Part shown: positions 2,426-34,163 of the stretch, one piece after another
Position numbering within the stretch: position 1 is the stretch's first letter
Layout: every line of letters begins with the position of its first letter
Virus record (IMG/VR): IMGVR_UViG_3300047375_000463
Coordinates: 1-34,163 of that record
Length of the DNA: 34,163 nucleotides
Direction: 5' to 3' (one strand)
DNA from: a virus
The notes under the pieces: generated by a model
What the model was told of the DNA's origin: nothing
What the model saw: the letters and a program-made list of their open reading frames with translations, nothing else
The model's database searches: none
Position numbers and translations under genes: made by a program

Positions 2426-2449
2426 ATATAATACTGTATGGAGTAAATG

Positions 2450-6182: not shown

Positions 6183-7240
6183 AAGTAGCAGTATTAAATG
6201 ACACGCATTGCGGTATACGTAACTCTTCCGAAATCTTTCTCAACAACTCGGCAAAGTTTTACAAAGAAGTCTTTTTTCCTTACTGTCAAGAACATGGGAT
6301 TGAGCAAGTCTTACACTTGGGCGACTATTATGACCACCGGAAATTTGTAAACTTTAAAGCGCTTAATCATAATCGTAAGTATTTCTTAGATCCTCTTCGT
6401 AAACTCGGTATGAAGATGGATATTATACCAGGAAATCATGACACATATTATAAGAATACGAATGATCTTAATTCGTTAAAAGAATGTCTCGGCCATTATA
6501 TGAATGAAATCCATATTGTTATGGAACCGTCTGTAATGGAATATGGTTCTCTTCGAATCGCACTTCTCCCTTGGATCAATTCTGAGAACTATGAGACATC
6601 AATGAAGTTCATTCAAGAGTGCAAAGCTGACTGGCTCGGTGCGCACCTTGAATTGAACGGATTTGAAATGATGCGTGGAATTAAGAATACGCATGGTATG
6701 TCACCAGATATATTTAAACGTTTTGAATTAGTATTGACTGGCCATTTTCATTGTTCTTCTCGTAGAGATAATATTTGGTATCTTGGCAGTCAAACTGAAT
6801 TCTTCTGGTCAGATGCTCATGACCCCAAGTATTTCCATGTAATTGATACAGAAACTCGTGATGTAGAAAAAATAAGAAATCCTCACACTTTATTTGAAAA
6901 AATTGTGTACAATGACGAGAAAATAGATTATAATAACTATAATGTCGAAAATTTAGATGGCAAGCTTGTTAAGGTTGTCGTTGTAAATAAAGCAGACATG
7001 TTTACATTTGACAGGTTCATTGATCGTATTCAATCTCAGAATATCGTTGAACTAAAAATTGCTGAGAACTTTCAAGAGTTTCTTGGCGAAAATATTGAAG
7101 ATGAGAAGATTAATTTTGATGACACTCAAGAGATCGTTGATTCTTATATCGATGCTGTTGATACAGATCTTGACAAGGACAAAATTAAGATTCAAGTACG
7201 TGAACTTATGACGGAAGCACAGGCTCTGGATTTTGCATGA
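6179..7240 (+). CDS. 47: gp47 recombination nuclease subunit (Mre11/SbcD family)
   Basis: 353 aa, similar to T4 gp47 (about 339 aa). Calcineurin-like phosphoesterase motifs run in order: NDTHCG near residue 8, GDYYDHR near 48, GNHDT near 85, and later LTGHFHC with conserved histidines. Partnered with gp46, the Rad50 homologue, it resects DNA ends and degrades host DNA to feed phage DNA synthesis. It starts in an ATGA overlap with gp55 and ends in an ATGA overlap with gp46. Its coding sequence contains a promoter-like element at 6906-6934. Confidence 0.93.
   Translation: MKVAVLNDTHCGIRNSSEIFLNNSAKFYKEVFFPYCQEHGIEQVLHLGDYYDHRKFVNFKALNHNRKYFLDPLRKLGMKMDIIPGNHDTYYKNTNDLNSLKECLGHYMNEIHIVMEPSVMEYGSLRIALLPWINSENYETSMKFIQECKADWLGAHLELNGFEMMRGIKNTHGMSPDIFKRFELVLTGHFHCSSRRDNIWYLGSQTEFFWSDAHDPKYFHVIDTETRDVEKIRNPHTLFEKIVYNDEKIDYNNYNVENLDGKLVKVVVVNKADMFTFDRFIDRIQSQNIVELKIAENFQEFLGENIEDEKINFDDTQEIVDSYIDAVDTDLDKDKIKIQVRELMTEAQALDFA
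6906..6934 (+). promoter_or_regulatory. Intragenic promoter inside gp47, upstream of gp46
   Basis: TGTACA (6906-6911), exactly 17 nt, TATAAT (6929-6934), the same architecture as the intergenic promoters. It lies about 300 nt before the gp46 start and could raise gp46 expression. It also encodes VYNDEKIDYNN in gp47, so coincidence is possible. Confidence 0.5.
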
Positions 7241-8979
7241 TTAAATTTCAAACTCTCCGATACAAGAACTTCTTGTCATCGGGAAACACTTTTACTGAAA
7301 TCAATTTGAATAAAGACAAGACTACTCTTGTTGTAGGTCAAAATGGTGCAGGTAAATCTACTATGCTCGATGCCATATCATTTGGTCTTTTTGGTAAGGC
7401 ACATCGTAATATTAATAAAGCACAACTTGTAAACTCAATTAATAATAAAGGAAGTTTAGTTGAGGTAGAATTCAATATTGGTACAGCTCGATATAAAGTA
7501 TGTCGTGGTATCAAACCAAATGTATTTGAGATCTGGAAGAATGGTGATATGATTAATCAATCATCTCATTCAAAAGAATATCAAAAGATACTCGAACAAA
7601 ATATATTGAAGTTAAACCATAAGTCTTTCCATCAGGTAGTTGTATTAGGTAGCTCCTCATTTATCCCCTTTATGCAACTACCTGGCGGAGTACGTCGAGA
7701 AGTCATTGAAGATCTTCTTGACATTAATGTATTTTCAAAGATGAACATAATCCTAAAGGAACGAAATGCGCAGTTAAAAGATAATCTCAAACAGATAGAC
7801 TATAACATAGATATCGTAAAAACTAAAATTGAATCTCAAAAGAAGTACATTCGCGATATCGCAGCACTAACTGAAGAGAATCGGAAGGATTATGAATCTA
7901 GGATACATGCATCGCAGAATAACATCGATGAACTACAGGCTGAGAATAGTGAGCTTGGCCTCGGACTCGATGAATCTATATCAGAAGCCGATGAAAGGTT
8001 ACGATCTTTACAGAATCGGAAGCAGGACTTACTCCTCAGAAGTCAAGATAGGCAGACGAATATCCGCGACCTCGAGAAGCGGATCACCTTTTTCGACGAG
8101 AATGAGTCGTGTCCCGTGTGCGACCAAGCCATTTCAGACGGCCATAAACATGAGATTTTACGGTCAACGAAAGAATCTCAGGATAGGGGGAAGGCAGCGC
8201 TTAAGCAAATCGGAGTTGAAGGCCAAGGAGTGGAATCGCAGATTAATGATCAGACTAGCATACTTTCAACGCTTCGGGATCGGGTACATAAAATCACTTC
8301 CAATACCCGCGAGATTACGTCCCTCAACTCGACGATATCTGATTACCGAACGCATATAGAAAAAGAGGTTGGCACGGATCTTACTGAAGCTCGTGCCGAT
8401 CTTACAAAATTTGAAGATGACAGAAGCGATCAACTTGAAAACAAAATGAAAATATCTGAAGAGTTTAATTATAATTTTGTCATCGTAGAAATGTTAAAAG
8501 ACACAGGAATTAAGACAAAGATTATCAAGCAGTATTTGCCTGTTATGAATAAACTAGTCAATCAGTATTTACAAATACTTGACTTCTTTGTTCACTTTCA
8601 TCTTGACGAATCATTTCAAGAAGTAATTCGTTCTCGTCATAGAGATGAATTTACTTATGATTCATTTAGTGAAGGTGAAAAACAGAGAATTGATTTGGCT
8701 CTTCTCTTTACTTGGAGACAGGTAGCAAAGATGAAGAACTCTGTATCAACTAATCTTCTCTTACTCGACGAAACTTTTGATTCAAGTCTAGACCATGATG
8801 GCGTAGAAAATCTACTTAAGATTCTTTACACTCTTGGTGATGATACAAATGTATTTGTCATTTCTCATAAAGGTGAAATCCTTGATGGTAAGTTCAATAA
8901 TAAAATTGAATTCGTAAAAGAAAAAAACTTTAGCAAGATGAAAAATAACAGTGTACAAGCTAATGAACTTGTGTTATAA
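7237..8979 (+). CDS. 46: gp46 recombination nuclease ATPase (Rad50/SbcC family)
   Basis: 580 aa (T4 gp46 about 560). The N-terminal ABC-type ATPase half has Walker A GQNGAGKST (residues 34-42). A long coiled-coil follows, with a zinc-hook CPVC at residues 292-295. The C-terminal half carries the signature SFSEGEKQRIDLA and Walker B LLLLDETFDSSLD. It forms the end-resection complex with gp47. The central coiled coil (roughly 7860-8350) uses codons such as CGG, AGG, CCC and GGG that are rare in the flanking ATPase halves and leaves a 155-codon overlapping frame open. The promoter for gp45 overlaps its last codons. Confidence 0.94.
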   Translation: MIKFQTLRYKNFLSSGNTFTEINLNKDKTTLVVGQNGAGKSTMLDAISFGLFGKAHRNINKAQLVNSINNKGSLVEVEFNIGTARYKVCRGIKPNVFEIWKNGDMINQSSHSKEYQKILEQNILKLNHKSFHQVVVLGSSSFIPFMQLPGGVRREVIEDLLDINVFSKMNIILKERNAQLKDNLKQIDYNIDIVKTKIESQKKYIRDIAALTEENRKDYESRIHASQNNIDELQAENSELGLGLDESISEADERLRSLQNRKQDLLLRSQDRQTNIRDLEKRITFFDENESCPVCDQAISDGHKHEILRSTKESQDRGKAALKQIGVEGQGVESQINDQTSILSTLRDRVHKITSNTREITSLNSTISDYRTHIEKEVGTDLTEARADLTKFEDDRSDQLENKMKISEEFNYNFVIVEMLKDTGIKTKIIKQYLPVMNKLVNQYLQILDFFVHFHLDESFQEVIRSRHRDEFTYDSFSEGEKQRIDLALLFTWRQVAKMKNSVSTNLLLLDETFDSSLDHDGVENLLKILYTLGDDTNVFVISHKGEILDGKFNNKIEFVKEKNFSKMKNNSVQANELVL

Positions 8980-15188: not shown

Positions 15189-17690
15189 ATGTCTTTTTAT
15201 ACGAATGTAGATCGTCGTGGAAATAAAATATTATATCGCGGATATAACCATCAAGGTGTTCCGCAAACTTTAGAATATAAACTTGGTCTTGATAGAGGTA
15301 ATGACTATCGACCGGTATTGTATGTGCCCTCAAAAAGCCAAACCGAATGGCAAGCTCTTGATGGCAATTATGTAGAGCCTGTTTATTTTCATAACTATAA
15401 TGAAATGAAAGACTTTATTAAAAAGTATGAAAACGTAGATAGTTTTAAATGGTATGGTCAAGATAGAATTATTTGGCAGTTCATACAGAAAAAATTCCCT
15501 AAAGAACCTGAAGTAAATACCTCTCTTATTAACACTGTCTTTATGGATATTGAGGTTCATTCAGAAGATGGATTTCCTAATCCCGATGATGCACAATGGC
15601 CTGTGACTGCTATTGCTTTAAAGTCTTCGAAAGAAGGAGTGTATCGTGTATGGGGCTGCGGTGAGTATGACAAAGAAAAATCACCGCACACACATCTTAA
15701 TATTCGATATATTCGTTGCGAAGATGAATATGCTTTACTTGAATCATTTATGGCATATTGGACGTCAGCGTATCCTGAAGTAATTACAGGCTGGAATGTC
15801 CGCGGCTTTGATATTCCATATCTTGTTAATCGTATAAAACATTTATTCGGTGAACACATTGCTTGTTTGCTTTCACCGTGGTATAAGCAATTTAAAGACT
15901 GGGCTATTCGCGACAAGACTGTAGCGTTTAAAATGAAGACTATGAAAACCTATCAAATTGCAGGTATTTCACAGCTCGATTACATGGATCTTTTCCAAAA
16001 GTTTGGCTATAGCTACGGCCCTCAAGAATCTTATTCACTTAATCATATCTCACATGTCGTGCTTGGCGAAAGTAAGATGTCATATGAAGAACATGGTAGC
16101 CTGCGTAATCTCTACAAAGATGACTACCAACTCTATATTGATTATAATATTAAAGATGTTGAACTTGTAGAAAAGCTTGATACTAAACTTGATCTATTGA
16201 ATCTTGTCTTTACAATGGCTTACAAAGCTGGTGTTAATTATGGCGATACATTTGGTACTACAGCAATATGGGATTCTATTGTGTATCGCGAACTGTCAAA
16301 AAGAAAAGTTATAATTCCCGGTCCACCTGACCGTCGTGATCGTGAAGGCGCATATACCAAGTTCGAAGGTGGCTATGTAAAAGAACCACAAGTCGGCGCA
16401 CATGACTGGGTAGTTTCCTTTGATTTGAATTCTTTGTATCCAAATATTATTGCGCAATGGAATATGTCACCTGAAACTATTGTAATGAATGGAGATAATC
16501 TATCTCGTTCGGCAAAAGCTGGCGTATCATTTAATAACAATCGCGAAGGTGTATTCCCTATGCTTGTTAAGCAGTACTACGATGATCGTAAAACTGCTAA
16601 GAAAGAAATGATTGAATGGCAAAAGAAACAACAGAAAGAAGGTACAAGTGTTGAGATCGAAAAACAAATTGCTTCATTAAACAATAGACAAATGGCAATT
16701 AAGATCTTAATGAACTCTCTGTTCGGTGCTATGGGTAATAAGTGGTTCCGTTATTTTGACCTTCGAGTTGCAGAAGGTATTACTCTTACCGGTCAACATG
16801 TCATTAAGACCTGTGAAAAGGTAGTAAATGATGAAATGAATAAACTACTCGGAACTCAAGATGATTTTGTAATTGCTATTGATACAGATTCAATCTATGT
16901 TAACTTCTCAAAATTTGTACAGAAGTTTCAGCCAAAAGAACCTGTAAAGTTCCTTGATGAATCGTGTCAGAATCACTTCCAAAAAATCCTCGACGGTGCT
17001 ATGGAAAAACTCTTCAAAGATATGAATTGTTTCGAAAATCGTATGGTCATGGAACGTGAGGTGATTGCTGATCGTGGTATCTGGACTGCAAAGAAAAGAT
17101 ATATTTTGAATGTGCACAACTCTGAAGGCGTGCAGTACGAAGAACCAAAACTCAAGATTATGGGTATTGAAGCAATCAAGTCTTCTACACCTACAATATG
17201 TCGTGCTAAGTTCAAAGAGATATTTAAAGTTATTATTTCTGGTACAGAAGAAGATGTACAGCAATATATCTTAAAGTTCAAACAAGAATTTAAACAACTT
17301 CCTGCAGAAGAAGTTGCCTTTCCACGTGGTGTGACTAATCTTACAGAATGGCGTGATAAGAAAACAGTCTATAAGAAAGGCACTCCTATTCACGCGCGTG
17401 GTGCCATACTTTATAATAACATTCTTAAAGAAAGCAATCTCACAAATAAGTACGAATCGATTAGTAATGGTGATAAGATAAAGTTTATCTATCTGCGATT
17501 ACCAAACCATCTCAAAGAGAACGTTGTATCTTTTCCAGTTGTAGGTCTACCACGAGAATTCAAATTAGATCAATATATCGATTACGATAAACAATTCGAG
17601 AAAACTTTTCTTGATCCTCTAAAAATAATCCTTAATGCGGTTGGTTGGAATGCAGAAGAGCAAGCAACGTTGGAAGCTTTTTTTGGATAA
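15189..17690 (+). CDS. 43: gp43 family B DNA polymerase
   Basis: 833 aa (T4 gp43: 898). Proofreading exonuclease motifs are [10 protein letters not shown] (about residue 118) and [15 protein letters not shown]. Polymerase motif A is [15 protein letters not shown] (about 410), motif B the K..NS.FG stretch ([14 protein letters not shown]), and motif C DTDSIY (about 566). KKRYILNV is the KKRY motif after motif C. This is the replicative polymerase, working with the gp45 clamp. It is transcribed alone from its own promoter; strong GGAGG before the ATG. RegA probably controls its translation, as in T4, but I did not identify an operator. Confidence 0.96.
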
Positions 17691-19127: not shown

Positions 19128-19490
19128 ATGAAAGAATCTCTTAAATTTCTTCAGCGCTGTGCTGAAATACAAGTCAAAAAATCTAATGACTATCAAAATC
19201 CAAATTCACGTGTAAAGCAAGCTGATTACTATCCACGCGGTTGTGCTACTCTTCTTGATACAATGTATGCTAAAGTTCTTCGTATGCAGTCTGTACTCGA
19301 AGCTATGGAACATGATCCTGACTATGAACAAAACTTTGAATCACTCGAAGATTCATGTGTCGATCTTGCTAACTATGCTTCTTTCTTTGCTGCTTATATG
19401 AATCAAGGTATTGAAGGTCAAGATGGTACTCGTGATATGTTAAACCGACCAGCAAAATTTGAGGTAACTCTTGATGAAACTAGCGATTGA
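19128..19490 (+). CDS. Nmad1/DUF1599-like protein (nucleotide-modification associated)
   Basis: 120 aa all-alpha protein. The pattern 'KKSNDYQNPNSRVKQADYY', '.LLDTMYAKVLRMQSVLE', 'NFESLEDSCVDLANYASFF' looks like the DUF1599 family, which has been named nucleotide modification associated domain 1. The assignment is from memory of the family pattern and not from a search. It fits the context: the same operon holds a cupin, a cytidylyltransferase-like protein, dCMP hydroxymethylase and dCMP deaminase. Exact biochemical role is unknown. GGAG sits 6 nt before the ATG. The 3' end overlaps the cupin by 17 nt. Confidence 0.6.
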   Translation: MKESLKFLQRCAEIQVKKSNDYQNPNSRVKQADYYPRGCATLLDTMYAKVLRMQSVLEAMEHDPDYEQNFESLEDSCVDLANYASFFAAYMNQGIEGQDGTRDMLNRPAKFEVTLDETSD

Positions 19491-19800
19491 TGATATTGGT
19501 GGCGAGGTTGTTAAAGAAGATGACCGCTACATTGTAAAAGATAATAAGTTACTTAATAATCTTGTTGTAAGTAGCACTAAGCTTAAGCCAAAGAAAAGTA
19601 CTTCAGGTCATAGCCATGCTGGCCAAGAAGAAGTGTATTACTTTGTCAAAGGTTCTGGTAAAATGGAACTGGATGACAAAACTGTTAATGTTAAAGTCGG
19701 TGATGTAGTTCTTATTGAAGATGGTGTATTCCATCGCGTGCATGCAGGCCCGTACGGATGTTACTTTGTTTGTGTATTTGATGGACGGAGAACACATTGA
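19474..19800 (+). CDS. Cupin-fold protein
   Basis: 108 aa single-domain cupin. Motif 1 is GHSHAGQEEVYYFVKGSGKM, with probable metal ligands H46, H48 and E52/E53; motif 2 is GDVVLIEDGVFHRVHA with H87 or H90. ATG 19474 has GAGG 9 nt upstream and is preferred over TTG 19471. Small cupins can be sugar isomerases/epimerases, dioxygenases or binding proteins, so the reaction is open. Its location beside the cytidylyltransferase-like gene may point to sugar or polyol handling. It ends in a TTGA overlap with the next gene. Confidence 0.78.
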   Translation: MKLAIDDIGGEVVKEDDRYIVKDNKLLNNLVVSSTKLKPKKSTSGHSHAGQEEVYYFVKGSGKMELDDKTVNVKVGDVVLIEDGVFHRVHAGPYGCYFVCVFDGRRTH

Positions 19801-20219
19801 AAGTAGGATTTACTGCATCAACATTTGATTTACTTCATGCTGGTCATATTACTATGCTTCGTGAAGCAAAGGCTCAATGTGATTATCTTATTTGCGCACT
19901 TCAAGTAGATCCAACTTTAGATCGCGCTGAAAAGAATGCGCCAGTTCAAACCATAGTAGAAAGACAGGCACAACTTTCTGCGGTAAAATATGTTGATGAA
20001 GTACTTATTTATTGTACAGAAGCTGATTTACTTGATATAATAAACATGTATCCAATTGATGTACGGATACTCGGTGAAGAATACAGGCAAAAAGATTTTA
20101 CCGGTAAAGATGAATGTCGTAATCGTGGCATTGAATTATATTTCAATAAGAGAGATCACAGGTTTTCATCAAGCGATCTAAGAGGAAGAGTGGCAAATGC
20201 AAATGCAAACAGTGAATGA
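19797..20219 (+). CDS. Cytidylyltransferase-like nucleotidyltransferase (TagD/RfaE-N type)
   Basis: 140 aa. The HxGH nucleotide-binding motif is in FDLLHAGH (H14, H17). The rest follows the glycerol-3-phosphate cytidylyltransferase pattern: VDPTLDRAEKNAPVQTIVERQAQL, YVDEVLIY, DVRILGEEY and an SSSDLRGR end corresponding to the S-T/S-T-x-I/L-R motif. It probably couples CTP or ATP to a small phosphorylated sugar or polyol. Start TTG 19797 overlaps the upstream stop (TTGA), with GGAG 8 nt upstream; no in-frame ATG lies close. Substrate unknown. Confidence 0.8.
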   Translation: MKVGFTASTFDLLHAGHITMLREAKAQCDYLICALQVDPTLDRAEKNAPVQTIVERQAQLSAVKYVDEVLIYCTEADLLDIINMYPIDVRILGEEYRQKDFTGKDECRNRGIELYFNKRDHRFSSSDLRGRVANANANSE

Positions 20220-20859
20220 TATTAGAAAACATTTTATTGGAGAATTAAATGACGGAGCCTTTACAACAGACAAAACCGGTCAAAATACGATCGAACTACT
20301 TGGCGCTTCATTTATCGCAGACGAACCCGCAATCTTTGGAACTCCAAACCAAGAATACATTAATCGAGAAATTGATTGGTATATTTCTGCTTCTACTAAC
20401 ATTCACGATATTTATGACAGGGGGACTGCTCCTCCTGAAGCATGGCAATACGCTGCTGACAATCATGGGAACATAAATTCTAATTACGGTTATTTGATTT
20501 TCAGTGATATATATTATAGGCAGTACGATAATGTGCTAACAGAATTACTTGAAAACCCTGATTCTCGTAGAGCATCAATGATATATCAAAGGCCATCTAT
20601 ATGGACAGAGTATAATGAAAATGGTAAAAGTGATTTTATATGCACTAATGCTGTCACTTATTATATTCGCAATGATGAACTACAGTCAGTGGTCCAAATG
20701 CGGTCAAACGATGTCGTGTATGGATACAAAAATGACTATGCTTGGCAGCAATATGTTTTAACTACACTTGCCAAAGATCTTGGTATTCAACCAGGATTTA
20801 TTACTTGGCAAGTACAAAACCTCCACGTTTACGAAAGGCATTTTAATCTTGTCAAGTAA
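20197..20859 (+). CDS. 42: Deoxycytidylate (dCMP) hydroxymethylase, gp42
   Basis: 220 aa (T4 gp42: 246), thymidylate-synthase fold. It tracks T4 gp42 throughout: GASFIADEPAIFGTPN, GNINSNYGY, NPDSRRASMIY, SDFICTNAV, VQMRSNDVVYGYKNDYAW, HVYERHF. The catalytic Cys is C149 and D180 (in KNDYAW) takes the place of the Asn of thymidylate synthase, the change that gives cytosine specificity (C148 and D179 in T4). It makes 5-hydroxymethyl-dCMP from dCMP and methylene-tetrahydrofolate, so phage DNA is expected to contain hydroxymethylcytosine. A second ATG at 20203 is also possible. It overlaps both neighbours. Confidence 0.93.
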   Translation: MQMQTVNDIRKHFIGELNDGAFTTDKTGQNTIELLGASFIADEPAIFGTPNQEYINREIDWYISASTNIHDIYDRGTAPPEAWQYAADNHGNINSNYGYLIFSDIYYRQYDNVLTELLENPDSRRASMIYQRPSIWTEYNENGKSDFICTNAVTYYIRNDELQSVVQMRSNDVVYGYKNDYAWQQYVLTTLAKDLGIQPGFITWQVQNLHVYERHFNLVK

Positions 20860-21310
20860 ATGGGATATTAGATATCTTCAATTAGCCGAGAACATTGCTT
20901 CTTGGTCAAAAGATCCTTCAACTCAAATCGGCGCAATTGCTGTTGGAACCAAAGGGCAAGTATTGGCTCAAGGTTACAACGGCTTTCCACGTGGAGTTGA
21001 GGATAGAGTAGAATATTATGAAGATCGTGAGACTAAATATAAGTATGTCGTTCATGCAGAAATGAATGTCATATATAATGCTACATATAACGGTGTTTCT
21101 TTAGATGGCGCCACACTATATGTAACTGGCTTGCCAGTCTGTTCTGACTGCGCAAAGGGTGTAATACAGGTCGGCATTAAAAGAGTTGTCATGAAAGAAC
21201 AGAATATTCCGCCTAAGTGGATAGAATCTTGGAAGACAACCGCAGGTATGTTCGATCAAGCAAAAATAAATTGGGAGTTTATAAATGTCACAGATTCAAG
21301 AACGTCATGA
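20849..21310 (+). CDS. cd: Deoxycytidylate deaminase
   Basis: 153 aa from TTG 20849; the longer upstream frame would overlap gp42 far inside and has no support. Zinc and catalytic motif: HAE (H69-E71) in VVHAEMN and the PxCxxC pair as PVCSDC (C98, C101). STQIGAIAV and NGFPRGVED match the T4-type dCMP deaminase N-terminus. It converts dCMP to dUMP for dTTP synthesis, consistent with thyX downstream and competing with gp42 for dCMP. The TTG start overlaps the end of gp42 by 11 nt. Confidence 0.88.
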   Translation: MSSKWDIRYLQLAENIASWSKDPSTQIGAIAVGTKGQVLAQGYNGFPRGVEDRVEYYEDRETKYKYVVHAEMNVIYNATYNGVSLDGATLYVTGLPVCSDCAKGVIQVGIKRVVMKEQNIPPKWIESWKTTAGMFDQAKINWEFINVTDSRTS

Positions 21311-21494: not shown

Positions 21495-21501
21495 GCATAT
21501 T

Positions 21502-21578
21502 CCCAGACATGCAGCTGGGTGCATAGGATGAATAACTATACACCTTAGCTTGCCCGCGTACGTCTGGCTCAGACTACG
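21502..21578. other. Two small hairpins in intergenic region
   Basis: CCCAG (21502-21506) pairs with CTGGG (21515-21519) over an 8-nt loop. CGTA-c-GTCTG (21557-21566) pairs with CAGAC-TACG (21570-21578) over a GCT loop, 9 bp with one bulge. A near-late-promoter TATAAATG follows at about 21580. The 239-nt gap has no ORF with a ribosome-binding site. A structured RNA or leader is possible; no known family matched. Confidence 0.4.
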
Positions 21579-21594
21579 TATAAATGCTAAAACA

Positions 21595-21650
21595 TAATTA
21601 CCATGTAGTTTAAAACTGAGATATAATATTTCAGAACTACATGGTAATTA
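21595..21650. repeat. Perfect 16-bp inverted repeat, probable terminator or structured RNA
   Basis: The 16 bases at 21595-21610 are the exact reverse complement of 21635-21650. The 24-nt loop itself contains CTGA/TCAG (21616-21619, 21631-21634). It lies between the modification operon and the promoter of the glycosyltransferase operon (21676), where a terminator would be expected, but no clear T-run follows. Confidence 0.6.
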
Positions 21651-21675
21651 GTAATAATATTATGCAAAATAACTG

Positions 21676-21704
21676 TTTACTTTTTACTTCGTTTAGTTTA
21701 TAAT
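21676..21704 (+). promoter_or_regulatory. Promoter of the glycosyltransferase/Glf operon
   Basis: TTTACT (21676-21681), 17 nt, TATAAT (21699-21704). AGGAG and ATG 21734 follow. Confidence 0.83.
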
Positions 21705-21733
21705 ATACTTATAAATCAGGAGAACACTATATT

Positions 21734-22750
21734 ATGAAAATATTGATTACTGGCATGAATAAGCAACAGTGTACTGAGAACTTTTACAAAACTTCTCAAC
21801 TGAAGGTTATGCCATCTCACCTTTCTTTGATTGCATGTCTACGAGACATGGGTCATACAGTAGAACAACGTATTGTCACGATTGGTGAAGATCTATCTGA
21901 ATATGATAGAATCATTTGTTACATCCATAACCCATCCGGTTTTGCAGGATTTGTCTATAATGGGTTGTGGCTAATCAATGAATATCCGGAATGTATTCTT
22001 GCTTTTGATGATTGGCAAACAGATAGTATCTACAAAGGTTTGACTGCACTCGAAGATCCTGAGAAACTCTTTAGACCATATGTCAAAGATGGTCATAAGC
22101 ATGTACCAGATAATATTGAAGATTATCAAAAGCAATTGCTAAGTGGTATTGAGATAGTAAAATCGAAGAAAAACAAAATGTTGATTAGTGCTTTTGCTGG
22201 TGGTAATCTTAATTTGTTAATTGACTATCCGAAGGAACTTATGTTCTCTTTTAATCCAAATCCATATCATATTAATCTTTCCTCTAATTTTAATTCACTC
22301 TTCGAAGAAAAGCAAAAAGTATTTAACTTTGCTGGTCTGATTCAAGACAAAACAAAGAAGTGGTTGAAAGCACAGAACATTGGTGATTGGCCACTTAAGA
22401 AATACGGTTCACGTAAAGATGGTCAGGATCGGGTAATCGAACCAGAAATGGTTAATATCTATGGTCAACAATGGGGTATCCTTATGCCAGGTTATTTCCA
22501 TGCGGGATCTGGTTGGTGGAGAGCAAGACCTCTACAGGTTGCAGACAGTGGATCGATCCTTATTGGTGATTGGAAAGAAATGGTACTCTATTATGACGAT
22601 GATGACCTTGCTTCTTTGAAAGCATCTGATGTAATTATGATGTCAGATAAACAACTTGAAGACGTGGCAGCCGCCCAAAAAGAAGCCATATATACTACTC
22701 ACCCGCTCGATAAGAGCGTAACTCAAGAAGAACTAGGGAGAGTATTATGA
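21734..22750 (+). CDS. GT-B-like glycosyltransferase, possible DNA (hydroxymethylcytosine) glycosyltransferase
   Basis: 338 aa. The start ILITGMNKQQCTENF with 'SHLSLIACLRDMGHTVEQR' and 'SEYDRIICYIHNPSGF' resembles the N-terminal Rossmann half of T4 beta-glucosyltransferase in layout. The C-terminal half has GWWRARPLQVADSGSILIGDW (about 260-280), like the 'R.WE.MAS.AVML' donor-binding segment of GT-B enzymes. Similarity is patterned and weak, so the acceptor is not certain. Context supports DNA: the phage has gp42, and this gene is the first of a three-gene operon with UDP-galactopyranose mutase and an epimerase. The alternative is a cell-surface or virion glycan enzyme. Confidence 0.55.
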   Translation: MKILITGMNKQQCTENFYKTSQLKVMPSHLSLIACLRDMGHTVEQRIVTIGEDLSEYDRIICYIHNPSGFAGFVYNGLWLINEYPECILAFDDWQTDSIYKGLTALEDPEKLFRPYVKDGHKHVPDNIEDYQKQLLSGIEIVKSKKNKMLISAFAGGNLNLLIDYPKELMFSFNPNPYHINLSSNFNSLFEEKQKVFNFAGLIQDKTKKWLKAQNIGDWPLKKYGSRKDGQDRVIEPEMVNIYGQQWGILMPGYFHAGSGWWRARPLQVADSGSILIGDWKEMVLYYDDDDLASLKASDVIMMSDKQLEDVAAAQKEAIYTTHPLDKSVTQEELGRVL

Positions 22751-23763
22751 AATGCTTAATAGTTGGTGCTGGATTTGCTGGTGCTACAATTGCGCGAATG
22801 CTTGCAGACGCAGGTCATAAAGCGGTTGTGATAGATAAAAGAGATCATATTGCCGGCAATGCCTATGATTATGAGAATGAATATGGAATCCGTATACACA
22901 AATATGGACCACATTTGTTTCATACTAACAATAAGAAAGTATATGATTTTGTAAGTCAATTTACTGAATGGGTAGATTACAAACATAAAGTCAAAGCGCA
23001 ATTAAGTGACGGTCAATACGTTACTTTGCCTGTTAATAAAGAAACAAAAGAAATTGTTGGCGAAGAAAATGTTATAGATATATTTTTCAGACCGTATACC
23101 TACAAAATGTGGGGTAAAACAATCGAAGAACTAGATCCAAGTATTCTAAAAAGAGTACCAGTTCGAGACGATGATAATGAATACTATTTTCCAAATGATG
23201 AGTATCAATGTTTGCCAAAAAACGGTTACACAGATTTGATTAAGAACATGCTCGATCATGAAAACATTGAAGTCATGCTTAATACTTCATGGGCTGATAG
23301 ACACAAAGTTTACGATGACTATTCACATTGTTTTAATAGCATGCCCATTGATGAATACTTTAAATTTAGATACGGAGAATTGCCATATCGTTCTATTAAA
23401 TTCCATGATGTGACGTTACCTATGAAAAAGGTATTGCCTACAGGCACTGTTAATTTTACTCATGATGGGCCATATACTCGAGTGACTGAATGGAAAAATT
23501 TGCCGTGTCACGGAGACACTGATAAATATACCACTCTTACTTATGAAGAGCCATGTGATTACCAAGATAATAATATGGAAAGATATTATCCTGTCAAAGA
23601 TGTTGATGGCGAAAACAGAAAAATTTACGAAAAGTATAAAAACATTGTAGAAGAGAATATGACATTTATTGGTAGATGTGGTCAGTATGTCTACGTAGAT
23701 ATGCATCAGGCAATTAACTCTTCAATGGTAACAGCAGAAAAATTTCTAAAGGAAAACAAATGA
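22747..23763 (+). CDS. glf: UDP-galactopyranose mutase
   Basis: 338 aa flavoprotein. FAD-binding GxGxxG motif at residues 7-12 (VGAGFAGATIAR), then VIDKRDHIAGNAYDY, and the family motif GPHLFHT near residue 55. Later FRPYTYKMWGKTIEELDPSIL and RVPVRDDDNEYYFPNDEYQ, and the C-terminal GRCGQYVYVDMHQAI (arginine and tyrosine residues that bind the UDP-sugar) are typical of Glf. It interconverts UDP-galactopyranose and UDP-galactofuranose. It starts in an ATGA overlap with the glycosyltransferase, with GGGAG upstream, and ends in an ATGA overlap with the epimerase. Rare in phages to my knowledge. Confidence 0.9.
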   Translation: MKCLIVGAGFAGATIARMLADAGHKAVVIDKRDHIAGNAYDYENEYGIRIHKYGPHLFHTNNKKVYDFVSQFTEWVDYKHKVKAQLSDGQYVTLPVNKETKEIVGEENVIDIFFRPYTYKMWGKTIEELDPSILKRVPVRDDDNEYYFPNDEYQCLPKNGYTDLIKNMLDHENIEVMLNTSWADRHKVYDDYSHCFNSMPIDEYFKFRYGELPYRSIKFHDVTLPMKKVLPTGTVNFTHDGPYTRVTEWKNLPCHGDTDKYTTLTYEEPCDYQDNNMERYYPVKDVDGENRKIYEKYKNIVEENMTFIGRCGQYVYVDMHQAINSSMVTAEKFLKENK

Positions 23764-24509
23764 AAATTGCAATTACAGGATCGAGCGGCTTTATTGGCGG
23801 TCATTTAAAAGAAAAACTTGAAAGCGATGGTCATACGATTATTGAATGGGATCGTAAAAACGAAAGTAGAAACATTCATAACTTTGAATTAGAAGGAGCC
23901 GAGTTTGTTATTCATCTTGCGGCTGATGCAGATGTACGACGTTCTATCGAAGACCCAGATGCATATTGGCATAATAACGTAACACCAACAACTCGTATTC
24001 AGCGTATGTGTCATGAAGCAAACGTACCTCTTCTCTATGCCTCCTCTTCTTGTATTCATGCGTGGCATCAATCGCCATATGGTATTAGTAAGAAAGTTAA
24101 TGAAGAGACTGCATTTCCCGGTCAAGTAGGATTAAGATTTACTACAGTTTATGGTGGTCGCGGTGCTGGGCGTGGTATGTTTATGGATAAAATTAAAGAC
24201 GGTAGTCTTAGATACGCTACAAAACATATTCGTGATTTTATTCACATTGATGATGTGATTCAAGCTATTGATCGTATTATGTTGAAGATTACAGATCCAG
24301 GTTTGATTGATGCAGCCCTTCGGCCGGCATACGATATTGGTACAGGTACAGGTTATATGGTATATGAACTTGCAATTATTAGAAATCCAGGTGTTGATAT
24401 TAAATATGGTGATGATTGTGAGGCACAAGATAATACAGCAGATGTTACGCACATTCAAGAACTTGGATTTAAATCGACTATTGACGTAAAAGACTATTTA
24501 CATTCCTAG
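23760..24509 (+). CDS. NAD-dependent sugar epimerase/dehydratase
   Basis: 249 aa extended short-chain dehydrogenase. N-terminal GSSGFIGG (residues 7-14) binds NAD(P); HLAADADVR is the usual 'HLAA' strand. Catalytic Ser is in YASSS (95-97) and the YxxxK pair is Y107/K111 (YGISK). The C-terminal part (RDFIHIDDVIQAI, YDIGTG) binds the nucleotide sugar. It probably makes or interconverts a UDP- or GDP-sugar for the neighbouring transferase, for instance UDP-glucose to UDP-galactose, the Glf substrate. That exact reaction is inferred from context. Translationally coupled to glf. Confidence 0.85.
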   Translation: MKIAITGSSGFIGGHLKEKLESDGHTIIEWDRKNESRNIHNFELEGAEFVIHLAADADVRRSIEDPDAYWHNNVTPTTRIQRMCHEANVPLLYASSSCIHAWHQSPYGISKKVNEETAFPGQVGLRFTTVYGGRGAGRGMFMDKIKDGSLRYATKHIRDFIHIDDVIQAIDRIMLKITDPGLIDAALRPAYDIGTGTGYMVYELAIIRNPGVDIKYGDDCEAQDNTADVTHIQELGFKSTIDVKDYLHS

Positions 24510-24548: not shown

Positions 24549-25595
24549 ATGAGTATTATGGATAAACTTCAGAAGAATAGTAAGATCAAAGAAACTTCTA
24601 TTCTTGCCGATTCAAAATTTTTTACAGAAAAAGATATGGTTGCCACCAGTGTTCCTATGATCAATGTGGCACTATCTGGTTCTGTCGATGGTGGTCTAGC
24701 GCCCGGTCTTACTGTACTTGCAGGTCCATCAAAACACTTTAAGACTTCGTTCGGTCTTATTATGGCAGCAGCTTATCTCAAAAAACATAAAGATGCTGTA
24801 CTCTTATTTTATGATTCAGAGTTTGGTTCACCTCAAGCTTATTTTGAACAATATGAAATTGACACGACAAGAGTTCTTCATACTCCAATTAAAAACATTG
24901 AAGAACTAAAATTTGATTTGATCGGTCAGTTGGAAAATATTGAACGTAAAGACAAAGTCATAATTATGATTGACTCAGTTGGCAACGTAGCATCTAAAAA
25001 AGAATTAGAAGATGCTATTAATGAAAAATCTGTTGCTGATATGTCACGTGCTAAAGCTCTTAAGGGTTTATTCCGTATGACAACGCCTTATCTAAATATG
25101 CGCGATATTCCTTTGATTGCTGTTAATCATACGTACATGGAGATTGGTCTATTCCCTAAAGCTGTAGTCTCTGGTGGTACTGGAATCTATTACTCTGCTG
25201 ATAATATCTGGATCTTAGGTCGTCAGCAGGACAAAGTTGGTACAGAAATTAAAGGCTACCACTTTGTTATTAACGTGGAGAAATCTAGGTATGTCAAAGA
25301 AAAGTCTAAAATACCTATTAGCGTGTCTTGGGATGGCGGCGTTCAGTCTTATAGCGGCCTTCTCGACGTCGCTCTTGGCGGCAATTACGTTGCTAAGCCT
25401 AGTAACGGTTGGTACTGTCGTGTTGATAGAGATACTGGAGAACTCGTCGATCCGAAATGTAGAGAAAAAGATACATTGGAAGCCGGATTTTGGGAACCAA
25501 TCTTTGCAGAAACCGATTTCAAGGATTATATTCAATCCAAATTTGCCATTGGAGGAACGAGAGATAATGTCCTTGTACTCGCCGATTCCGCATAA
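24549..25595 (+). CDS. uvsX: UvsX RecA-like recombinase
   Basis: 348 aa (T4 UvsX about 391). Walker A GPSKHFKTS at residues 59-67, the YDSEFG strand, Walker B VIIMIDSVGN, and the L2-adjacent VSGGTGIYYSADNIWILGR region are those of UvsX. It forms filaments on single-stranded DNA, with UvsY as mediator, for recombination-dependent replication. AAGGAG precedes ATG 24549. The end overlaps the next gene by 29 nt. Confidence 0.94.
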   Translation: MSIMDKLQKNSKIKETSILADSKFFTEKDMVATSVPMINVALSGSVDGGLAPGLTVLAGPSKHFKTSFGLIMAAAYLKKHKDAVLLFYDSEFGSPQAYFEQYEIDTTRVLHTPIKNIEELKFDLIGQLENIERKDKVIIMIDSVGNVASKKELEDAINEKSVADMSRAKALKGLFRMTTPYLNMRDIPLIAVNHTYMEIGLFPKAVVSGGTGIYYSADNIWILGRQQDKVGTEIKGYHFVINVEKSRYVKEKSKIPISVSWDGGVQSYSGLLDVALGGNYVAKPSNGWYCRVDRDTGELVDPKCREKDTLEAGFWEPIFAETDFKDYIQSKFAIGGTRDNVLVLADSA

Positions 25596-30323: not shown

Positions 30324-30352
30324 TGTACAAGCGCTAAAATATGTGTTATAAT
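30324..30352 (+). promoter_or_regulatory. Promoter upstream of the tmRNA
   Basis: TGTACA (30324-30329), 17-nt spacer ending TGTGT, TATAAT (30347-30352). Confidence 0.83.
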
Positions 30353-30357
30353 ATAAG

Positions 30358-30365
30358 TATAAATA
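30358..30365 (+). promoter_or_regulatory. Plus-strand late promoter TATAAATA at the tmRNA
   Basis: Exact late box 30358-30365, just after the early-type promoter, so the tmRNA and the genes after it could be transcribed both early and late. Confidence 0.7.
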
Positions 30366-30445
30366 TAGATGATTCAGTGAAGCTGGATGGATGTAGGCTG
30401 GACGTGGGGGCAGTACCCACCGCCTCCACCATAAGGAGTCTTATA

Positions 30446-30553
30446 ATGGATGAAGTATTATTGTGGCAGTTTAGACAAAAATGTGTAGAATATATTTGCA
30501 TCAATAACTACTCAATATATCACGCGAGACTCATTATGATGGGGGCGAAATAG
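30446..30553 (+). CDS. Possible 35-residue ORF in the tmRNA intervening segment
   Basis: ATG 30446 is preceded by AAGGAG (30433-30438) two bases after the tmRNA CCA end. The ORF (MDEVLLWQFRQKC, ending GAK) runs through the intervening segment and stops within the 5' tmRNA piece (TAG 30551-30553). It would be translated only from uncut precursor. Chance cannot be excluded for so short a frame. Confidence 0.35.
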   Translation: MDEVLLWQFRQKCVEYICINNYSIYHARLIMMGAK

Positions 30554-30597
30554 GATCGACAGATACGAGAAGGCAGTGGAGAATCAAAAAAGTAAAT

Positions 30598-30639
30598 GCA
30601 AACGATAACTTTGCTCCTGAGATGCGCCTAGCGGCATAA
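30598..30639 (+). other. tmRNA proteolysis-tag reading frame
   Basis: GCA AAC GAT AAC TTT GCT CCT GAG ATG CGC CTA GCG GCA TAA encodes ANDNFAPEMRLAA. The start (ANDNFA) is typical of alphaproteobacteria and the end LAA is the usual ClpXP degron. Confidence 0.92.
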
Positions 30640-30650
30640 TCTCTGGGCCC

Positions 30651-30687
30651 GCAGGAGCCTCGAAACAGAATCCTGCAACTTATTTTT
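30651..30687 (+). terminator. Alternative hairpin at the tmRNA 3' end, possible terminator or processing site
   Basis: GCAGGA (30651-30656) can pair with TCCTGC (30671-30676), followed by a T-rich stretch. It competes with the tag-enclosing stem for 30652-30658. It may define the end of the coding piece or attenuate transcription into the next gene. Confidence 0.45.
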
Positions 30688-30698
30688 AAGGAGAAATT

Positions 30699-31784
30699 AT
30701 GCCACCACGTAATCATAGTAATTGGACTAAGACGCCAAAGGTAGAATATATTAGCAGTGAATGCTATAATGATCATAGCATTTATCTACGTGAACAAGAA
30801 GAAATCTTTTCAAAGGTGTGGGTTCCTATGTGCCACATCAGTGAGATGTATAATAAAGATGACTATCGTACTACACAAATTGCAGGTCAAAATGTAATTG
30901 CATGGAATACTGGTGACGGTATTAAGGCAGCATATAATTTACAAATGCAATCACCTGCTGGCAATCAAGTCTCTATTGATAGAGGTTGTGGTAAAAAGCT
31001 ACACTGTGAAGTCAAACATGGTGGTATGGTATGGGTAACACTTGATCCCAATCCTACACAATCAGTTGATGAATGGACAGCGGGTGCATTTGATTGTATT
31101 GCTGATGCTATTGACACCGAAGAGATGGAAGTTTTTCATTACCATAAAGCAGTTATAGATACTAATTATAAATTATGGCATGATACAAACAGCGAATTCT
31201 ATCATGACTTTATGCATTATTTTAATCGTGTGTCAGGATTCAACGATGAATACTTTGCCAGAAAAAATATACCATTCGATAATGGCCACGTTAATGTTAG
31301 TTCATTTACAGTCAACTACGAAGAGTATGATGGGTTTGAGGATAGAGGCGAGCTTAGTTTCCCTAACCTCCCACCAAATCAATGGTATATGGTTGATTTA
31401 TTCCCTGGATTTAATTTTAATTTACGCGGTAGCGCTTATAGAAGCGACAGCGTCACACCTCTTGGGCCAAACAAAGTACTTATTGAGTTTAGAGGGTATG
31501 GTCTCAGAAAAGATACGCCAGAAGAAAGGCAAACTAGAATAAAACACCATAACTCTATATGGGGACCATTCGGTCGTAACCTACATGAAGATTTAATTGG
31601 TGTTGCAGGTCAAGGTACTACTATGAGAGAAGGTACAGAATCGAGAAACATTCTACACGGTCGCCATGAAAATTCTACAATTCATGATGAAGTTGGAATG
31701 AGACATTATTACGAAGCATGGGGAAATATGTTGGGCGTAACTCCAATGAATCCTTTACAATTTGAAAAGGCAAAGGCTGCATAA
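30699..31784 (+). CDS. Ring-hydroxylating-oxygenase alpha-subunit-like protein with degenerate Rieske domain
   Basis: 361 aa. The N-terminus follows the ring-hydroxylating dioxygenase alpha-subunit pattern (YLREQEEIFSKVWVPMCHISEM, then DDYRTTQIAGQNVIAWN). The Rieske Cx1H...Cx2H is lost: the first site is NLQMQSPAG (residues 80-88) and the second keeps only C103 and H107 spaced as Cx3H. The catalytic domain keeps probable mononuclear-iron ligands: H169 and H173 in SEFYHDFMH, and D298 in NLHEDLIGV. It may be an oxygenase with another electron source or a non-canonical enzyme. AAGGAG precedes the ATG. It ends in a TAATG-type overlap with the next gene. Confidence 0.68.
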   Translation: MPPRNHSNWTKTPKVEYISSECYNDHSIYLREQEEIFSKVWVPMCHISEMYNKDDYRTTQIAGQNVIAWNTGDGIKAAYNLQMQSPAGNQVSIDRGCGKKLHCEVKHGGMVWVTLDPNPTQSVDEWTAGAFDCIADAIDTEEMEVFHYHKAVIDTNYKLWHDTNSEFYHDFMHYFNRVSGFNDEYFARKNIPFDNGHVNVSSFTVNYEEYDGFEDRGELSFPNLPPNQWYMVDLFPGFNFNLRGSAYRSDSVTPLGPNKVLIEFRGYGLRKDTPEERQTRIKHHNSIWGPFGRNLHEDLIGVAGQGTTMREGTESRNILHGRHENSTIHDEVGMRHYYEAWGNMLGVTPMNPLQFEKAKAA

Positions 31785-32005
31785 TGGCTGAAGAAAAAAA
31801 GACTGGTGTTGTGGTTAAAAACGATCATAACGAATTCGAGTTGTTGTTAAGATTTTTAGGCAATGAATTAATTGCAATTAGATTGGCAGCAACAAACTTT
31901 AATGGTAAGTTGATTATGTGGAGTATTGTCCTTATGATCTTTACGTTTATGATAATGGAGGTTTTCGGTCTGAGCGCAATGCTCGGTTTCGGCGATATGG
32001 GATAA
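31784..32005 (+). CDS. Small membrane protein of unknown function
   Basis: 73 aa. Polar N-terminal 40 residues (VVVKNDHNEFELLLRFLGNELIAIRL) and one C-terminal transmembrane segment (LIMWSIVLMIFTFMIMEVFG). It starts at the stop of the oxygenase-like gene (TAATG) and overlaps the next gene's start (TAATG). It might anchor a partner at the membrane; no family recognised. Confidence 0.65.
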   Translation: MAEEKKTGVVVKNDHNEFELLLRFLGNELIAIRLAATNFNGKLIMWSIVLMIFTFMIMEVFGLSAMLGFGDMG

Positions 32006-32361
32006 TGACAAAATTCGGTAAACAATTATTAGCCGCATGGATTTTTTCTATTGGCGTTATAGTATTAACTAACCTAGCTTTTGCTGCTCCGTATTGGGCA
32101 CAAAAGCCTATTCAATGCGCTTCTCCGGGAGAAGTATTTAATAGATTGGATAGAGATGGTCTCGTACCATTATTTTCTTCTACAGGAAATGCTAAAGTAG
32201 AAGATAACATTTATACTAAAATGTATGCTATGTTGTATAATCAAGACACCGGTGCGTGGGCCTTTATAGAATTTTTTGATGAAGAAACAACATGCGTCAT
32301 AGTAGTCGGCGAAGGTGTAGACTTTGATGTACAAGGCGAAGAAACAAAAGCACCGTACTAA
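32005..32361 (+). CDS. Secreted/periplasmic small protein of unknown function
   Basis: 118 aa from ATG 32005 (TAATG overlap; a longer upstream frame is a shadow). It has a clear signal peptide: basic start, hydrophobic core (AAWIFSIGVIVLTNLAFA) and probable cleavage after AFA before APYW. The mature part (about 91 aa) has two cysteines (IQCASPG and TTCVIVVGEG) that could form a disulfide, and a YNQDTGAWAFIEFF strand. Export by the host is implied. Function unknown. Confidence 0.72.
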   Translation: MTKFGKQLLAAWIFSIGVIVLTNLAFAAPYWAQKPIQCASPGEVFNRLDRDGLVPLFSSTGNAKVEDNIYTKMYAMLYNQDTGAWAFIEFFDEETTCVIVVGEGVDFDVQGEETKAPY

Positions 32362-32381
32362 AATGTATTAGGAATTTTAAT

Positions 32382-32999
32382 ATGAGTTATAATAGTTTAT
32401 TATCTTTTGGTGACTTGATACCTTTAAAATTAAAGTGTAATGTTAAGAAGTTATTTGACGAAACGGAAGAGTTCGTCTATCTAAAATACAATCCAAGAAA
32501 AGATATAGAAAGATACGGTTTAAGTATTACCAGTTTAGACGGTTCTTTAAATGGTATAGATTTAGATTCTATAAAAGAATATAATAAAGAAAATAATACT
32601 GAATATGATGAGTTATCTTTTAATAAATTTACAGATGTTTATAATATTAGTTCAGAAATACAAAAAATAGTAGAACCATTTAAAAATCATATAGGTCGTT
32701 CACACATTTTACATTTGGCAAAGGGTGGTTATTTTCCACCTCATAGAGATTTGCCTGTGTATGTAGAACAACAGAATAGTTTAAGAGTATTAATACCTTT
32801 GAAAGGTTGTAATCCACCAGATATGTATTTTATGTACGAAGATAAACCATTACATTTTGAACATGGTAGGGCATATTTTTTAAACACAAATAAAGCACAT
32901 AATCTATTTGCATTTAAAGATAGTTATATGATAGTATTAAATATAAAAACAAGTGAGCAAGTGTATCAGATTTTAGGAAACAATTTCCAGGCGAGTTAA
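32382..32999 (+). CDS. 2OG-Fe(II) hydroxylase, aspartyl-beta-hydroxylase-like
   Basis: 205 aa. The cupin/jelly-roll core has PPHRDLPVY (H121 and D123) and NKAHNLF (H173), the 2-His-1-Asp iron triad, with RVLIPLKG and HGRAYFLNTN as conserved strands. It resembles aspartyl/asparaginyl or free-amino-acid (for example proline) hydroxylases found in marine phages. Substrate unknown. The region is very AT-rich. GGAATTTTAAT before the ATG is a weak SD. Followed at two bases by the desaturase. Confidence 0.82.
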   Translation: MSYNSLLSFGDLIPLKLKCNVKKLFDETEEFVYLKYNPRKDIERYGLSITSLDGSLNGIDLDSIKEYNKENNTEYDELSFNKFTDVYNISSEIQKIVEPFKNHIGRSHILHLAKGGYFPPHRDLPVYVEQQNSLRVLIPLKGCNPPDMYFMYEDKPLHFEHGRAYFLNTNKAHNLFAFKDSYMIVLNIKTSEQVYQILGNNFQAS

Positions 33000-33000
33000 T

Positions 33001-33561
33001 TTGACGTTTTTATATATTTACATTTTGTATTACACTATGGTAACTATTGGAATTACTTGGGGTTATCACCGATGTTTTGCACATAATGAAATAAAAGTAA
33101 ATTTAGTAATCGAATGTATAATGCTTTATTTTGGATTATTGTGTGGAGGACAGTCTGCATTAAGTTGGTGTGGTGTTCATAGAATGCATCATGCCTATTC
33201 AGATACACCACAAGATCCTCATAGTCCATTATATAAAAAATGGTATGAAATAGTTTTTTCGAGTTGGAAAGTAAAAAATATTCCAAGGAAATTTGTAAAG
33301 GATCTATATGAAAATCCTAGGGTAATGTTTTTCCATAAGTATGGTTGGCCAATAATAATATCAACATGGGCATTGGCAATATATTTTTATGTCATCCATT
33401 ATTTAATATCAGTATATCTATTATCATATATATTTTATGGTATGCTAAATTTATTTGGTCACTCAGAAAATGGTCCAGTAAATAAATGGTGGATTAATCT
33501 ATTTGCACCATTTGAAGGACAACACAGAGATCATCATGAAACAAAACATATTAAATCGTAG
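33001..33561 (+). CDS. Membrane fatty-acid desaturase (short form)
   Basis: 186 aa. All three histidine boxes of the delta-9-type desaturase family are present: GYHRCFAH (H23, H28), HRMHH (H60-H64) with DTPQDPHSP after it, and HRDHHE (H175-H179). Hydrophobic segments are near residues 1-20, 35-55 and 115-150. It is clearly shorter than the roughly 250-320 aa usual for the family: almost nothing before box 1 and seven residues after box 3. TTG 33001 has AGGCGAG upstream; ATG 33037 would cut into box 1's membrane segment. Electron donor unknown. Overlaps the next gene by 26 nt. Confidence 0.85.
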   Translation: MTFLYIYILYYTMVTIGITWGYHRCFAHNEIKVNLVIECIMLYFGLLCGGQSALSWCGVHRMHHAYSDTPQDPHSPLYKKWYEIVFSSWKVKNIPRKFVKDLYENPRVMFFHKYGWPIIISTWALAIYFYVIHYLISVYLLSYIFYGMLNLFGHSENGPVNKWWINLFAPFEGQHRDHHETKHIKS

Positions 33562-34163
33562 TAAAGCAGTTAGAACCTCTATTCTACCAGAAGTTTATAA
33601 TACAATAAAAGATATACCTGTAGATTTTGACGGTATAACCAATTACAAAACAAATATCATTGAGTGGTTAAAACCAATGGTAGACCTAACAGGCTATCAT
33701 GTTTATCCACGCAATGGTATTACTGAAGGATTAGATTGGTGGTATAATAGAGAGTTGCGCGGCGTAAATATAAGAGAAGGTGACTATCAATGGATTGATA
33801 GTAAAAAGGGTGAAGGTAAAATTGCTTACATTAGTCTACCTAGTTCTATAGATGGAAATATAGATATAGGACCAAAACTTTGTCCTATTGCGCTAGATCT
33901 TGCATATGTTGGTAGTACACAAATTAAACCAATTGAGTTAGATACAATCGATTATGCTTTCTATAGTTTAAGTAAATCATTCGGCGTAAGAAATATAAGG
34001 ACCGGATGGATATTTACAAAGGAACCGGATCCTAAACTAGAGGCATTGACTTTTAGTGCAAAGTATTATAATTATTATGCACATCAAGTTGCTGAAAATA
34101 TTATAAGTAACTACGATATAGATTATGTACATAATCGTTTATATGACGAACAACTACGTGTAT
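33536..34163 (+). CDS. PLP-dependent aminotransferase-like protein, 3' partial
   Basis: At least 209 aa, open to the right edge. ATG 33536 lies inside the desaturase end. Fold-type-I features: GITEGLDWWYN (like the 'G.TEG' PLP-phosphate loop), IALDLAYVG with D121 (binds the pyridine nitrogen), and YSLSKSFGVRNIRTGWIFT with the probable PLP lysine K147. The D-to-K distance (26) and short N-terminus suggest a compact class I/II enzyme. An amino-group transfer or C-N lyase reaction is expected; substrate unknown. It extends the metabolic cluster past the window. Confidence 0.75.
   Translation, partial: MKQNILNRSKAVRTSILPEVYNTIKDIPVDFDGITNYKTNIIEWLKPMVDLTGYHVYPRNGITEGLDWWYNRELRGVNIREGDYQWIDSKKGEGKIAYISLPSSIDGNIDIGPKLCPIALDLAYVGSTQIKPIELDTIDYAFYSLSKSFGVRNIRTGWIFTKEPDPKLEALTFSAKYYNYYAHQVAENIISNYDIDYVHNRLYDEQLRV

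Follow-up and report, generated by a model that had tools for sequence, protein, structure and literature searches.

The beta-glucosyltransferase of phage T4 (BGT; PF09198) draws on the UDP-glucose of its host, and phages of the RB69/Mosigvirus type run an arabinosyl-cytosine pathway in which an unusual, phage-made nucleotide sugar is combined with a DNA glycosyltransferase encoded near gene 43-uvsX, with 5-hydroxy-dCMP and an arabinose-5-phosphate isomerase as further components (PMC13390438). A third kind of hypermodification, known from base J and from phage TET operons, couples a TET/JBP enzyme with a glycosyltransferase; according to a 2026 study, alpha-GT and beta-GT are sisters of the GT-B fold, and the Tet-associated glycosyltransferase (TAGT) belongs to GT-A (PMC13216743).

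Here we analyze an operon that resembles each of these systems in part. It lies in a record of a marine T4-like virus (34 kb; the whole stretch of 34,163 nt is referred to as the window) and encodes a putative glycosyltransferase (GT), a UDP-galactopyranose mutase (Glf) and a nucleotide-sugar epimerase. With T4 BGT, its best structural match, the GT shares a predicted GT-B fold, a length of ∼340–350 residues, the gene slot between 42 and uvsX and a remote N-terminal profile similarity; unlike T4 BGT, it lacks a Pfam match, is acidic, shows only ∼15% identity, has a motif (GSGWWRxRPxQ) of its own and is accompanied by a phage-encoded Glf and epimerase. The combination of a phage-made sugar donor and a DNA-type transferase near gene 43-uvsX recalls the RB69 pathway, and one branch of the GT family (phrog_14998) in fact sits in an RB69/Mosigvirus-type arabinosyl gene cluster, whereas the window carries a gp42-type hydroxymethylase and Glf. 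As in the TET/JBP systems, a sister clade couples TET/JBP with GT, Glf and epimerase, but in contrast to the GT-A fold of TAGT the phrog_14998 transferase is modeled as GT-B and would be a further branch beside alpha-GT and beta-GT. Glf shares its domain, FAD motif and active site with the bacterial mutases, from which it differs in being shorter in mid-protein by roughly 35–40 residues and in being encoded by a phage, next to a DNA-type GT and not within an envelope-glycan cluster. Literature searches returned no report of galactopyranose mutase or galactofuranose in connection with phage hydroxymethylated DNA, with 2025 incompletely covered and an earlier description of the family possible. 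We consider it likely that the phage uses the operon to hypermodify its own DNA, with epimerase, Glf and GT together giving galactofuranosyl-hydroxymethylcytosine (galactofuranosyl-hmC).

Operon layout and supply of the acceptor base

The T4 replication core is carried on the + strand of the window, with uvsW and uvsY (2447–4347), gp46/47-like genes (6179–8979), the sliding clamp (from 9006), the clamp loader (from 9954), DNA polymerase B (15189–17690), uvsX (24549–25595) and a DnaB-type helicase (from 26978). In T4 the order is 43 - imm - 42 - b-gt - segA - uvsX - 40 - 41, and in the window it is 43 ... 42 - dcd - GT - Glf - Epi - uvsX ... 41, with the GT in the slot of T4 beta-gt. The preliminary description had spoken of three coupled genes, and GT (21734–22750, 338 residues), Glf (22747–23763, 338 residues) and epimerase (23760–24509, 249 residues), all on the + strand, are indeed joined by 4-nt ATGA overlaps. 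Their order recurs across many separate contigs; for the GT, dN is 0.10 and dS 0.92 (compared with locus L014), and the genes are under purifying selection.

The hydroxymethylcytosine operon that the same description had placed directly upstream is real. A thymidylate synthase (TS) homologue (20197–20859, + strand) matches T4 gp42 with E = 2.6e-69, whereas the best true TS gives 3.6e-11, and keeps the catalytic Cys148 and Asp179 (T4 numbering), the residue that makes the enzyme use dCMP; by sequence match and by these residues it falls within the gp42 type. Asp is likewise found at T4 position 179 in the TS homologues of GT-bearing Aeromonas, Erwinia and Morganella phages, Gordonia phage GMA2, actinophage DSL-LC01 and the long contigs G009, G012 and G013, and two true TSs encoded in the same genomes as such Asp-bearing homologues have Asn. 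Given the gp42 match, the retained Asp and the presence of ThyX (28548), which covers dTMP, the predicted synthesis of hydroxymethyl-dCMP by the window phage is well supported. Genes like the window hydroxymethylase were found in 1,049 of 50,697 phage records (∼2%).

The neighboring genes, again on the + strand, include a dCMP deaminase (20849–21310, the open frame beginning at 20768 and the likely start being a TTG at 20849) and a small protein with weak similarity to DUF1599 and a phrog hydrolase (19128–19490), tentatively dCTPase-like, a homologue of which directly precedes the GT in a freshwater clade. A cupin (19471–19800), an occasional partner of the GT, and an RfaE-C/TagD-type nucleotidyltransferase (19797–20219), a recurrent one, overlap the hydroxymethylase; the nucleotidyltransferase, also a neighbor of GT-Glf at TET loci, may produce an activated sugar.

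The operon had also been credited with its own promoter. The 240-bp gap 5' of the GT does contain a promoter-like site (TTTACT-17-TATAAT, 21676–21704, + strand, 10/12 match), the -10 box of which is kept in all seven aligned sequences and the -35 box in those without an intervening gene, but such sites are no commoner in the region than in shuffled sequence (29 found against 25.7 expected), and we regard the promoter as a candidate. The gap (21495–21733) resembles the remnant of a ∼123-residue UDG-superfamily-like gene that is intact in loci L013 and L019, and holds a perfect 16-bp inverted repeat (21595–21650, + strand; arms 21595–21610 and 21635–21650), the arms of which change together in L011, L012, L014 and L020. 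Elsewhere in the window we noted a permuted tmRNA gene missed by ARAGORN (30331–30680, + strand; Rfam alpha_tmRNA, 96.4 bits, E = 2.7e-25; tmRNA_permuted, 89.5 bits), a phage-borne tmRNA of alphaproteobacterial type that hints at the host, and, at the right end (30699–34162), a cluster of Rieske-type ring hydroxylase, Asp/Asn-hydroxylase-like and fatty-acid-desaturase-like genes.

Family, predicted fold and conserved residues of the transferase

The GT, like every one of the 56 sequences in the family alignment, matches phrog_14998 ("unknown function"); it has no sequence match in Pfam, NCBIfam or the PDB; PF09198, the profile of the T4 BGT family itself, does not match it either. Its assignment as a glycosyltransferase comes from the structure model. 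An AlphaFold2 model built on the 56-row alignment (pLDDT 91.5, pTM 0.90) was compared by VIA with 998 PDB chains chosen by Foldseek, and the top match was T4 BGT (Z = 17.5, rmsd 4.0, 297 of 338 residues aligned), two Z units above the next family (Z = 15.5); T4 AGT was also listed. With Foldseek alone, T4 AGT bound to DNA ranked second. The suggestion that the transferase has a layout like that of T4 BGT, for which structure prediction against BGT and AGT had been proposed, is thus borne out at the level of the predicted fold. For the GT of an Aeromonas phage, 30% identical to that of the window, BGT was again the top match (Z = 17.5; SenB, 16.4), with other GT-B enzymes within about one Z unit of it.

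When the GT profile was compared with a profile of seven BGT homologues, the probability of a match, remote and N-terminal, was 83%, as against at most 27% for seven unrelated control families and 1% for the single sequence of the RB69 arabinosyltransferase ORF003c. A generic Rossmann similarity was rejected as the source of the match, since SDR, Glf and other control families scored far lower, and so was descent from ORF003c, no homologue of which was found in six GT-bearing isolates.

Ten residues (D93, W94, G225, E236, G258, W262, R263, R265, E282 and Q315) are invariant across both alignments, and S259, W261 and Q268 nearly so. Asp93 follows the fourth strand, and Arg265 and Gln268 lie on the matching helix with the same spacing as Arg269 and Glu272 of BGT. 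Because global hhalign gave no usable alignment of GT and BGT, the catalytic residues were matched by secondary-structure order alone; in the model, D93 would correspond to BGT D100, G225 to G214, R265 to R269 and Q268 to E272. In BGT we take D100 to be the base and Arg269/Glu272 to be UDP-binding. The phosphate-binding arginines of T4 BGT are not clearly kept in the GT, and the calculated isoelectric points differ (5.6 for the GT, 9.0 for T4 BGT), although those of BGT homologues span 5.2–9.1, which makes this value undiagnostic as a test of DNA binding. Since it fails the PF09198 profile, we file the GT as a separate branch that would work like T4 BGT, outside the BGT family proper.

Linkage to hydroxymethylase or TET/JBP in related phages

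Searches of IMG/VR gave more than 120 GT loci, of which the 104 with at least 2.5 kb of upstream sequence were used to count linkage. A hydroxymethylase was present in 74 and a TET/JBP gene in 18 (Tet_JBP, PF12851, confirmed by Pfam in six loci), always on one strand with the GT; 12 loci had neither and none had both. If loci were independent, the chance of the two never co-occurring would be 1e-12; they are not, because the TET loci form a single supported clade of the GT tree, and the switch between hydroxymethylase and TET is therefore one deep event that counts once. In one of these loci (L137) the window's flanks are retained (a primase-like gene, then Glf, Epi and uvsX), with TET replacing the phosphohydrolase-hydroxymethylase-deaminase block. 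Among isolates, C48C1 has a TET gene (L002:7586–9001) that overlaps GT-Glf, in a complete genome with no hydroxymethylase and no PF00145 methylase, for which reason its acceptor may be hmU (T to hmU); the dioxygenase may oxidize thymine as in base J. A C5-cytosine DNA methylase (PF00145) follows Glf/Epi in locus L046 (10866–12062) and in 45 other loci, though hmC should replace C, and was not seen in the operon of the window.

GT-bearing isolates with another gene order still encode an enzyme of the dCMP type, gp42 in Aeromonas and Erwinia phages (50%–53% identity) and an RB69-like enzyme of the 5-hydroxy-dCMP type in a Morganella phage, and the GT records with neither hydroxymethylase nor TET (G003, G010 and G011) are fragments of 35–70 kb. 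Aeromonas phages 25, Aes012 and 50AhydR13PP and Erwinia phage FBB1 have GT-Glf together with gp42. Neither AGT nor BGT turned up in any of the 22 GT-bearing genomes searched, with T4 as positive control, and the GT profile had no match in T4, RB69 or three other BGT phages. This exclusion bears on two alternative roles in which the GT would not be the primary DNA transferase: extending a base that already carries a sugar, or modifying hmdCMP while it is still a free nucleotide. Di-arabinosylated cytosine does occur in mosigviruses, which have two putative transferases (PMC13390438), an additional GT1 glycosyltransferase is found at some TET loci, and the GT is acidic; yet a first transferase of the AGT or BGT kind is missing from those 22 genomes and at most loci the GT is the sole recognized glycosyltransferase of the operon, and we hold such a role to be very improbable. 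As separate observations, actinophage DSL-LC01 has a second, weak GT paralogue right after Glf (L006:11121–12134, 21% identity), and GMA2 a gene with an N-terminus similar to that of the GT (L007:11361–12344).

A pattern-limited scan covering 84,980 species of bacteria and archaea turned up no relative of the GT. Together with the BGT-like fold, the BGT slot, the occurrence of hydroxymethylase or TET but never both, and the exclusion of AGT and BGT, this makes the acceptor of the GT very probably a 5-hydroxymethylpyrimidine in DNA. The preliminary description had left open, as the other possibility, a glycan of the host envelope or virion (for superinfection exclusion or tail/capsid decoration), in which case the hydroxymethylase neighborhood would be incidental. 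Glf usually works on envelope glycans, occurs in other phages without a phrog_14998 GT and, in a freshwater relative, lies among the tail genes, but fold, slot, hydroxymethylase/TET alternation, AGT/BGT exclusion and the lack of bacterial relatives weaken this reading to the point where we think it improbable. The freshwater relative (L126; G006, 106000–119000) is the longest contig of a branch without adjacent Glf; its only Glf is the one in the tail region, beside two similar glycan-enzyme-like genes, and probably serves a separate virion or envelope glycan. T4-like phages of Rhizobium/Agrobacterium have Glf and no detected phrog_14998 GT; one of them, Atu_ph04, which encodes a GT1-type transferase as well as a dCMP hydroxymethylase (PMC6630229), is possibly a parallel system.

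The sugar donor and its implications

For the DNA-directed reading, the question becomes which sugar is transferred. Glf had been taken to make UDP-galactofuranose, and it matches Pfam GLF (E = 1.4e-54; PF03275, 185 bits against a cut-off of 26.3, with the FAD-binding N-terminus present) and a mutase (UGM) in the PDB (E = 7.7e-77), keeps every UGM active-site residue that could be placed from 3hdq (conserved in 53–55 of 55 alignment rows) and, with its shorter mid-protein segment, narrowly misses the TIGR00031 equivalog cut-off (293.3 against 303.75 bits). Glf was found at 110 loci, and at 104 of these it lies within 60 bp of the GT. The epimerase, proposed as a source of UDP-galactose, matches Pfam Epimerase (E = 6.2e-25), and GalE (TIGR01179) is its best NCBIfam model, at 61.7 bits against a cut-off of 262.3; it is a shorter SDR, not confidently GalE, and its sequence does not assign a substrate. 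In many relatives an epimerase of a second type immediately precedes the GT, and one example of it matches GalE with E = 6e-60 (TIGR01179, 202.7 bits, cut-off 262.3). This upstream, GalE-like epimerase suggests a route in the relatives from UDP-Glc to UDP-Galp to UDP-Galf.

The family as a whole is not tied to galactofuranose, because the Morganella GT stands between an arabinose-5-phosphate isomerase and an NTP-transferase, among genes linked to arabinosyl-cytosine (PMC6024577, PMC13390438); phrog_14998 enzymes may serve several donors. IMG/VR yielded no further relative of the Morganella type. A GT acting on hydroxymethylated DNA with a sugar other than galactofuranose, for example to give arabinofuranosyl-hmC, would need Glf to act on UDP-arabinopyranose or on an NDP-sugar made by the cupin and the RfaE/TagD-like nucleotidyltransferase, which recurs near the GT in 41 loci. 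5-Arabinosyl-dC occurs in RB69-type phages (PMC13390438), and at ten freshwater loci the hydroxymethylase and GT occur with no Glf nearby. Against this, the GT is paired with Glf at most loci and has a GalE-like epimerase at many, a direct route to UDP-Galf, and no arabinose-5-phosphate isomerase homologue was encountered in the IMG/VR neighborhoods; we regard another sugar as unlikely, if less so than a surface glycan. With Glf and GalE-like genes adjacent to the GT, galactofuranose is our best guess for the Glf-bearing loci. Of the galactofuranosyl-hmC first proposed for this phage, the DNA acceptor is thus supported, the Glf assignment stands on domain and active site, and the sugar and the contribution of the window epimerase are kept as the best reading of the adjacent genes.

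Alongside the observed gene content, gene order, residue conservation, linkage and exclusion patterns and the predicted fold, we infer an acceptor, donor, linkage and benefit that would combine as follows. By analogy with T4, the hydroxymethylase would make hmdCMP, which would be incorporated during replication. As members of their families, the epimerase would supply or top up UDP-galactopyranose and Glf would contract its ring to give UDP-galactofuranose. The GT would then attach the furanose to the 5-hydroxymethyl group in DNA, the invariant Asp93 probably acting as base. The resulting galactofuranosyl-hmC may shield the phage from restriction, CRISPR and type IV nucleases in the way that glucosylated and arabinosylated cytosines do.

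With its predicted furanose donor, the operon probably stands for a new branch of phage DNA glycosylation. We see about an even chance of the wider reading, in which phrog_14998 is a third phage-specific GT-B branch of DNA glycosyltransferases, widespread in aquatic phages, that transfers furanosyl groups, above all galactofuranose, to 5-hydroxymethylpyrimidines made by hydroxymethylase or TET/JBP; in that case a hexose in furanosyl form would be present on DNA. The analysis predicts a DNA sugar for which we found no report and offers a function for phrog_14998, a family annotated as of unknown function that has members in isolated phages; as a practical use, hmC could be labeled with the GT-Glf pair. 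The swap of hydroxymethylase for TET beside a conserved transferase suggests that two acceptor routes feed one sugar-adding step, and galactofuranosyl-hmC would extend the arms race between phages and type IV nucleases, antiviral DNA glycosylases and CRISPR.
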